Positions 4,548-53,680 of a stretch of 64,000 bases of DNA are shown piece after piece. The stretch spans positions 1 to 64,000 of the forward strand of contig NZ_JAPWGY010000006.1 of assembly GCF_027214005.1 (NCBI RefSeq). Direction: 5' to 3'. Positions within the stretch are counted from its first letter, which is position 1. Each line of letters starts with the position of its first letter. A model generated the notes under the pieces. The model made no database searches. It was not told where the DNA came from and was given only the letters and a program-made list of their open reading frames with translations. A program made the position numbers and the translations under genes. Source of the stretch: Kiloniella laminariae. GTDB taxonomy: Bacteria; Pseudomonadota; Alphaproteobacteria; Kiloniellales; Kiloniellaceae.

Positions 4548-4577
4548 TATATGGGAAAACAATCCGCTGCTTACAAG
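4548..4577 (-). promoter_or_regulatory. Sigma-32 (heat-shock) type promoter of clpB
   Basis: On the minus strand CTTG (4577-4574) is followed after 18 bases by CCCATAT (4555-4549). This agrees with the alphaproteobacterial RpoH pattern CTTG-N17/18-CYTAT-T. It predicts a leader of about 115-120 bases before the clpB ATG, a normal arrangement for a heat-shock gene. The motif match is seen; heat regulation is inferred. Confidence 0.6.
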
Positions 4578-4610
4578 ATTTCCAACAAGAATTTCCGGGG
4601 TATTTTCGAG

Positions 4611-4634
4611 GATGTTTCCGGGGATGTTTCCGGG
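4611..4634. repeat. Two perfect tandem copies of a 12-bp unit
   Basis: GATGTTTCCGGG occurs twice head to tail (4611-4622 and 4623-4634), just upstream of the clpB promoter. A related TTTCCGGGG lies at about 4592-4600. No function is suggested by position. Confidence 0.7.
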
Positions 4635-4690
4635 AGGAGTCTTGACCACAAACATCTCTTTTCATCAGACAGCGACGGTTCAGGCTGCTG

Positions 4691-4721
4691 AAAAAAGAAA
4701 ACCCTGCCCGAAGGCAGGGTT
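4691..4721 (-). terminator. Strong intrinsic terminator with UUCG loop, not assigned to a known gene
   Basis: On the minus strand AACCCTGCC-TTCG-GGCAGGGTT forms a 9-bp stem closed by the very stable UUCG tetraloop and runs straight into TTTTCTTTTTT. No annotated minus-strand gene lies between this element and the plus-strand MOSC gene. It therefore marks the end of an unannotated transcript. Confidence 0.8.
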
Positions 4722-4740
4722 GGGAAATCCCAAAGTTACG

Positions 4741-4812
4741 TCAGGAGAGATGAGTACATACCCAGAAGGAACAGAGATCATCAAAAGCCGTATTGGCCTG
4801 ATGCATCTTCAT
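4741..4812 (-). CDS. Candidate 23-residue peptide in a Fur-box transcript
   Basis: A minus-strand ATG at 4812 with GGGGA five bases upstream opens a 23-codon frame ending in TGA at 4741. The product starts MKMHQANTAF and ends CSFWVCTHLS, with two cysteines four residues apart flanking SFWV. I recognise no family. The frame ends about 20 bases before the terminator hairpin, as expected for a tiny mRNA, but an ORF this short can arise by chance. Its support comes from the promoter, box and terminator around it rather than from the peptide. It may be a leader or small peptide, or merely part of a non-coding RNA. Confidence 0.35.
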   Translation of the reverse strand: MKMHQANTAFDDLCSFWVCTHLS

Positions 4813-4840
4813 GTCTTCCCCGGTAGGAACTACAAGAAGG

Positions 4841-4869
4841 ACCTTAGTCGATGCAGAAAATTGATGCAA
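4841..4869 (-). promoter_or_regulatory. Candidate minus-strand promoter
   Basis: On the minus strand TTGCAT (4869-4864) and TAAGGT (4846-4841) are separated by 17 bases. The -35 is good and the -10 is weak. It lies directly beside the Fur-type box and is correctly placed to start the transcript ending at 4691. Confidence 0.4.
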
Positions 4870-4870
4870 C

Positions 4871-4885
4871 TGAAAATCATTCTCA
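4871..4885. promoter_or_regulatory. Fur-type operator (7-1-7 palindrome)
   Basis: TGAAAATCATTCTCA matches the classic ferric uptake regulator pattern TGAnAATnATTnTCA at every fixed position. It abuts the -35 element of the minus-strand promoter, a repressor position. It lies 160 bases upstream of the plus-strand MOSC gene, so a role there is possible but less direct. Which Fur-family protein (Fur, Irr, Mur) binds cannot be told. Confidence 0.65.
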
Positions 4886-53274: not shown

Positions 53275-53289
53275 TGCGAATCATTCTTA
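53275..53289. promoter_or_regulatory. Imperfect Fur-like box upstream of hemP
   Basis: TGCGAATCATTCTTA keeps the core AATnATT and the left TGC half of the palindrome seen at 53329-53343, but its right half is degenerate. Two boxes 54 bases apart could allow cooperative binding. Confidence 0.45.
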
Positions 53290-53328
53290 TAGTGACTTGA
53301 CAGAGATCAAGTCATCCACTACTCGTAT

Positions 53329-53343
53329 TGCGAATGATTTGCA
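53329..53343. promoter_or_regulatory. Fur/Irr-type operator before hemP
   Basis: TGCGAATGATTTGCA is an almost perfect palindrome of the type TGCnAATnATTnGCA. It lies 16 bases upstream of the hemP start codon, so a bound repressor would block the leader. The arrangement fits iron-repressed haem uptake. Confidence 0.65.
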
Positions 53344-53662: not shown

Positions 53663-53680
53663 AACAAGGTGCACAGGCAC

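Follow-up and report, generated by a model that had tools for sequence, protein, structure and literature searches.

The unit described here lies on the minus strand in the first five kilobases of the window, that is, of the whole 64,000-nucleotide stretch of DNA from Kiloniella laminariae, a species of a marine genus, that was analysed. It is flanked downstream, on the same strand, by a gene that we recognised by eye as ClpB-type, and on the other side by a divergent gene for a MOSC-domain protein, which has six Kiloniella homologues at 66-91% identity. The original prediction listed a Fur-type palindrome, a -35/-10 pair, a 23-codon open reading frame (ORF) and a UUCG terminator at this locus, and all of them are present where it had put them (Table 1).

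Table 1. Features of the unit, with positions in the window.
Feature	Position	Strand	Remarks
Putative Fur box TGAGAATGATTTTCA, 7-1-7	4871..4885	-	One base from the -35 hexamer; perfect palindrome bar one position (4885-4871)
-35 hexamer TTGCAT (TTGCAC in one genome)	4864..4869	-	
-10 hexamer TAAGGT	4841..4846	-	TANNNT in 9/9 genomes
Transcription start, predicted	about 4833-4834	-	Inferred from spacing
Conserved 5' domain CCUUCUUGUAGUUCCUACCGRGGAAG	4814..4840	-	
Predicted small RNA, about 140 nt	4694..4834	-	Limits inferred
23-codon ORF, judged no gene	4741..4812	-	ATG at 4812 preceded by GGGGAAG; stop ends at 4741; start codon not conserved
Variable linker with indels	4770..4813	-	Contains most of the supposed ORF
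Predicted seed CAUCUCUCCUGACGUAACU	4734..4752	-	Complementary to ribosome-binding sites
Small hairpin UGGGAUUUCCCA	4721..4732	-	Precedes the terminator; pairs identical in nine genomes
Intrinsic terminator, UUCG loop (UCCG in one genome), T tract	4691..4721	-	

The two promoter hexamers are separated by 17 bases in all nine Kiloniella genomes. No promoter is listed at the unit by a strict sigma-70 scan, because the -10 hexamer is weak. The terminator, a stem of 9 pairs closed by the UUCG loop (4721-4700) and followed by a T tract that is broken in the window copy by a single C, is detected by a loose scan that also reports 0.7 such sites on average when the sequence is shuffled. Both the promoter and the terminator calls gain weight because they are conserved. 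The first 6-7 bases of the 5' domain may fall upstream of the transcription start, and this segment may be only partly transcribed.

We built a covariance model (R1) from the nine Kiloniella sequences and searched 61 genomes of the order with Infernal, using its stricter filters and scoring at most 50 candidates per genome. Under these settings the unit was found in 9/9 Kiloniella genomes and in 0/52 other genomes, and a blastn search of 58 genomes likewise recovered it in all nine Kiloniella genomes. Two further blastn matches away from the locus, one in another genus and the second in one Kiloniella, span 26 and 30 bases of a terminator-like hairpin and were taken as chance.

Conservation of the box and the hairpin in close relatives, on which the original prediction had made its case depend, is borne out: both are near-invariant in the nine Kiloniella genomes, and the flanks are divergent. 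In particular, invariant bases make up 24/25 of the block formed by the box and the -35 hexamer, 24/27 of the 5' domain, 45/47 of the 3' domain and 24/29 of the terminator; the corresponding counts are 5/23 for the spacer with the -10 hexamer and 9/44 for the linker in the middle. The flanks retain 16 of 101 bases upstream and 8 of 131 downstream (4560-4690), and the neighbouring coding DNA is invariant at 47% of positions in the MOSC gene and 57% in the ClpB-type gene (924 bases). All these figures come from a single genus. Judged from the alignment, this is the conservation pattern of an RNA, and the locus is a candidate for an unannotated, genus-wide and well-conserved small RNA (sRNA) gene.

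The RNA of the window folds at -48.8 kcal/mol (z -2.8), and 4 of 200 dinucleotide shuffles fold as well. The consensus fold of the nine sequences consists of a 5' hairpin, the small hairpin and the terminator. A two-sided change occurs in just 1 of its 36 pairs, and covariation says almost nothing, for or against the fold, because most pairs do not vary. In most single-sequence folds, contrary to the local hairpin of the consensus, the 5' domain pairs with the 3' part. In the nine sequences, CUCAUCUCUCCUGACGUAACU is unpaired with a mean probability of 0.57-0.72.

The box stands beside the -35 hexamer in 9/9 genomes. Its occurrence exceeds chance: across the 4.38 Mb genome, exact matches to TGAKAATNATTHTCA are confined to three sites, namely at the unit itself, before a bfd-like gene (Fer2_BFD, E 1e-09), where the 15-mer is identical to that of the unit, and before the gene for a siderophore-interacting protein. 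When one mismatch is allowed, the genome yields 23 matches against 5 for the reversed control; next to most of the one-mismatch places no iron gene was recognised by eye, and one of them falls within an rRNA-methyltransferase gene. Elsewhere in the window, a TonB-dependent receptor gene that starts at 53669 is preceded by two weaker Fur-type boxes, each with two mismatches, which are 54 bases from each other at 53275 and 53329 (window 53275-53343).

Each of the eight Kiloniella genomes that are at least 97% complete has three genes of the Fur family, and the 77%-complete genome has one. The three proteins of the window's genome are closest to Fur, IrrA and Zur: the IrrA match scores 164 bits against a cut-off of 150, the Fur-like protein, of which only a 120-residue domain was supplied, is below the cut-off of the Fur model, and the Zur-like protein is below that of the Zur model. 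An Hfq gene was found in 8/9 Kiloniella genomes, the miss being the 77%-complete one. On sequence grounds, we regard the putative Fur box of the unit as convincing.

Taken together, the locus is probably a stand-alone gene for a trans-acting, Fur-repressed, iron-sparing sRNA of about 140 nt that would be RyhB-like in its action. We infer its transcription, control by Fur, binding to Hfq and repression of targets, and for Fur repression the grounds are the position of the box and the other Fur boxes in the genome. When iron is plentiful, iron-loaded Fur on the box beside the -35 hexamer would block transcription; when iron falls, the RNA would be transcribed up to the UUCG terminator. Its invariant CAUCUCUCCUGACGUAACU, which combines an anti-Shine-Dalgarno sequence with a target-specific flank, would cover the translation start regions of mRNAs that encode dispensable iron proteins by pairing with them. 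The predicted targets are PuuD, a urate oxidase with a haem motif, the 2-oxoadipate dioxygenase HGLS and a [2Fe-2S] ferredoxin, whose translation would be blocked and iron thus saved, probably with the help of Hfq.

The ferredoxin and HGLS emerged from two pattern searches of the nine genomes, in which the reversed controls were also hit often. When up to 2 mismatches are allowed, the wobble complement of CAUCUCUCCUGACGUAACU matches 61 places, including the 9 copies of the unit, and its reversed control matches 38; among 39 of the 52 off-locus matches that were inspected, the only recurrent start site belongs to the [2Fe-2S] ferredoxin (Fer2), in three genomes. Recurrent matches in a ClpX-like and another protein, both named by eye, were set aside as conserved coding sequence. 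A second seed-complement pattern, tied to ATG, has 37 matches against 17 in its reversed control, and among the 30 of these 37 that were inspected the recurrent starts are those of the ferredoxin and of HGLS (2-oxoadipate dioxygenase/decarboxylase), each in three genomes. A gene for HGLS, an Fe(II) enzyme, was found in 6/9 genomes. A gene for PuuD, a Urate_ox_N protein, was found in 8/9 genomes, and in one of them (G007) the protein has a CTTCH haem motif near its end.

Pairing energies were compared with those of seeds that were all derived by shuffling the G007 seed, either in full or with the flanks shuffled and the anti-Shine-Dalgarno core retained. PuuD pairs with the seed at -18.4 to -26.2 kcal/mol in the eight genomes in which its gene was found, and 0/500 core-keeping and 1/500 full shuffles do as well. 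The shuffle counts of the other two are flattering, because both were found with the seed itself, and the related genomes are not independent: for HGLS, with a six-genome mean of -20.8 kcal/mol, 2/500 core-keeping shuffles are as good (4/500 core-keeping and 0/500 full shuffles with four genomes), and for the ferredoxin, with a nine-genome mean of -22.2 kcal/mol, the counts are 17/500 core-keeping and 1/500 full. The gene sdhC was rejected as a target; its pairing, at -13.0 to -13.9 kcal/mol in 8/8 genomes, is near the background means of -11.7 and -12.5. The original prediction had proposed a scan for pairing with mRNAs of iron proteins; here such pairing is predicted for PuuD, HGLS and the ferredoxin, strongly in some species and weakly in others, and not for sdhC.

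The genomic background was sampled with a home-made gene caller, which gave 361 genes in 400 kb of G007 and 415 genes in 464 kb of G000, the genome of the window (the window included). Among the 361 genes of G007, HGLS ranks first and PuuD fourth, and the ferredoxin, which is outside the sample, would rank second. PuuD is second among the 415 genes of G000, where 33 sampled genes equal or surpass HGLS and 61 equal or surpass the ferredoxin, so that only PuuD of the three stays high in the window's own genome. The two samples share 75 reciprocal-best pairs, 39 of them with at least 50% identity; in these 39 orthologue pairs PuuD is first, followed by the HIU hydrolase of its cluster, but five of the eight best pairs listed belong to this single stretch. 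Other neighbours of puuD in the purine-catabolism cluster (L118 in G007, L147 in G000) also rank high together with the HIU hydrolase, and multi-site control of the pathway by the sRNA is possible.

Several further pairings were seen. The HGLS start of the window's genome (L189) pairs better with the conserved UCUGGGUAUGUACUCAUCU, which adjoins the seed, than with the main seed (-20.3 against -18.1 kcal/mol), and a second seed is therefore possible. A NuoF-type Fe-S protein with 2Fe-2S and 4Fe-4S domains (Complex1_51K; L150:10432-12141, G000) pairs at -21.5 kcal/mol. The start of a gene that by eye is AMP-ligase-like (MLRQGPSYESV; L174, L173) reads GTTACGTCAGGGG, near the complement of the seed, and was set aside because only two close relatives (G000 and G002) show it. 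With the 5' segment used as the seed, the ferredoxin ranks only 108th against the 361 genes and 172nd against the 415, and this segment was rejected.

The same rankings bear on a different reading, in which a Fur-controlled sRNA has other real targets, e.g., outer-membrane receptors or transporters, as RusT does (see below), and the pairing with iron-protein mRNAs is mostly a by-product of the anti-Shine-Dalgarno core. The ten best sampled genes include two iron proteins in G007 (HGLS and PuuD) and two in G000 (PuuD and the NuoF-type protein); the rest are mixed, with one in each ten lacking a Pfam match and one G000 gene (L141) left unscanned, and the best pairings of the samples take in solute-binding proteins, an ion channel and an HlyD protein. 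Seeds in which only the core is retained already average -13.5 to -16.9 kcal/mol at these target sites. We nevertheless consider this reading unlikely, given that in several species the pairing with PuuD, HGLS and the ferredoxin extends past the core and that, for PuuD, none of the 500 core-keeping shuffles equals the real seed. Iron sparing through a translation block of these three is the best-supported mechanism and is still a prediction.

The original prediction had offered, side by side, an iron-responsive regulatory RNA and a small peptide with two cysteines. Conservation of the Fur box, promoter and terminator favours the former, as do the other Fur boxes of the genome and the predicted pairing with iron-protein mRNAs. 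A Fur-controlled peptide gene is very improbable, and so is an RNA with a dual function that encodes the Cys-containing peptide as well. In the window's genome an ATG with GGGGAAG ahead does open 23 codons, and the nucleotide sequence of the final nine codons hardly varies across the nine genomes, but the ATG at 4812 is missing in the other 8/9 genomes. Downstream of the -10 hexamer, the window's genome has two in-frame ATG codons, G002 has only the second, G005 has one at another place, and 6/9 genomes have none, only TTG. The linker carries indels across the nine-genome alignment, and the invariant part of the ORF is unchanged at all codon positions, with no codon pattern, as expected of an RNA. 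The peptide reading fails because the start is not conserved, and the start-codon loss, the linker indels and the absent codon pattern all speak against a small protein gene. A role as leader or attenuator for the ClpB-type gene is just as improbable: that gene does begin some 270 bases past the terminator in the same orientation, but the sequence that follows the terminator lacks conservation, and transcription would already stop at the terminator.

RyhB and other iron sRNAs have Rfam models. At the gathering score, no Rfam family matches the window, and the 14 matches obtained with E values of 10 or less include no iron-sRNA family. Weak matches that cover the terminator end were rejected, among them rnk_pseudo (27.6 bits, E 0.0067; cut-off 55) and anti-hemB (19 bits; cut-off 49.5). 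The preferred reading, an iron-sparing sRNA, nevertheless resembles enterobacterial RyhB and its functional analogues PrrF and NrrF in Fur control of the promoter, in a short RNA with a terminator and in Hfq, all predicted here from sequence, as well as in the predicted pairing with iron-protein mRNAs. It differs from RyhB in having no Rfam match and in that sdhC, a classical target of such RNAs, is not predicted.

Within the Alphaproteobacteria, the available part of one report describes RusT of Caulobacter crescentus, an Hfq-bound sRNA of 118 nt tied to iron starvation, controlled by NtrX and encoded between lolA and the exodeoxyribonuclease III gene, the largest class of its targets being membrane proteins such as transporters (PMC11005374). 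The Kiloniella RNA is likewise alphaproteobacterial and is predicted to be iron-linked, and an Hfq gene is present, but it differs from RusT in its locus, between the ClpB-type gene (named by eye) and the MOSC gene. Two other Caulobacter RNAs, R0117 (about 1 kb) and R0088, are raised in a fur mutant, and the portion of the paper at hand states that no Fur box was found upstream of them (PMC6120978); the Kiloniella unit, by contrast, has a putative one. The Fur-repressed iron-sparing RNAs FsrA of Bacillus and IsrR of Staphylococcus belong to another phylum and were compared with ours in sequence through Rfam only; according to the excerpted account, FsrA is said to bind Shine-Dalgarno sequences via a C-rich motif, as is predicted for the Kiloniella RNA, and IsrR is Hfq-independent (PMC9410917). 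For Magnetospirillum, the accessible text names one Rfam sRNA (PMC9549626). In the open-access literature, as far as its available parts extend, we found no Fur-box sRNA in Alphaproteobacteria and no sRNA of Kiloniella.

Tentatively, with the odds somewhat against it, this could be the first alphaproteobacterial iron-sparing sRNA whose own promoter bears a Fur box, one that arose independently within a single genus and chiefly silences iron-costly purine catabolism (PuuD and its urate-pathway neighbours), in addition to HGLS and the ferredoxin. Purine catabolism is not among the targets named for other iron sRNAs in those parts of the literature that we examined. Elsewhere the iron-sparing job is done by unrelated RNAs, and in the same partial literature no RNA with such an iron switch was found reported for the class. 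The part of the RusT report available suggests that the activator role of Fur itself may make such an RNA unneeded (PMC11005374), and Fur-repressed iron-sparing RNAs are described, in the excerpts at hand, as having arisen repeatedly from unrelated sequences (PMC9410917). A genus-wide Fur-box RNA in Kiloniella would make the idea that the activator role of Fur renders such an RNA unneeded directly testable, and its narrow range may mark it as a recent case in which the origin of such RNAs can be seen.
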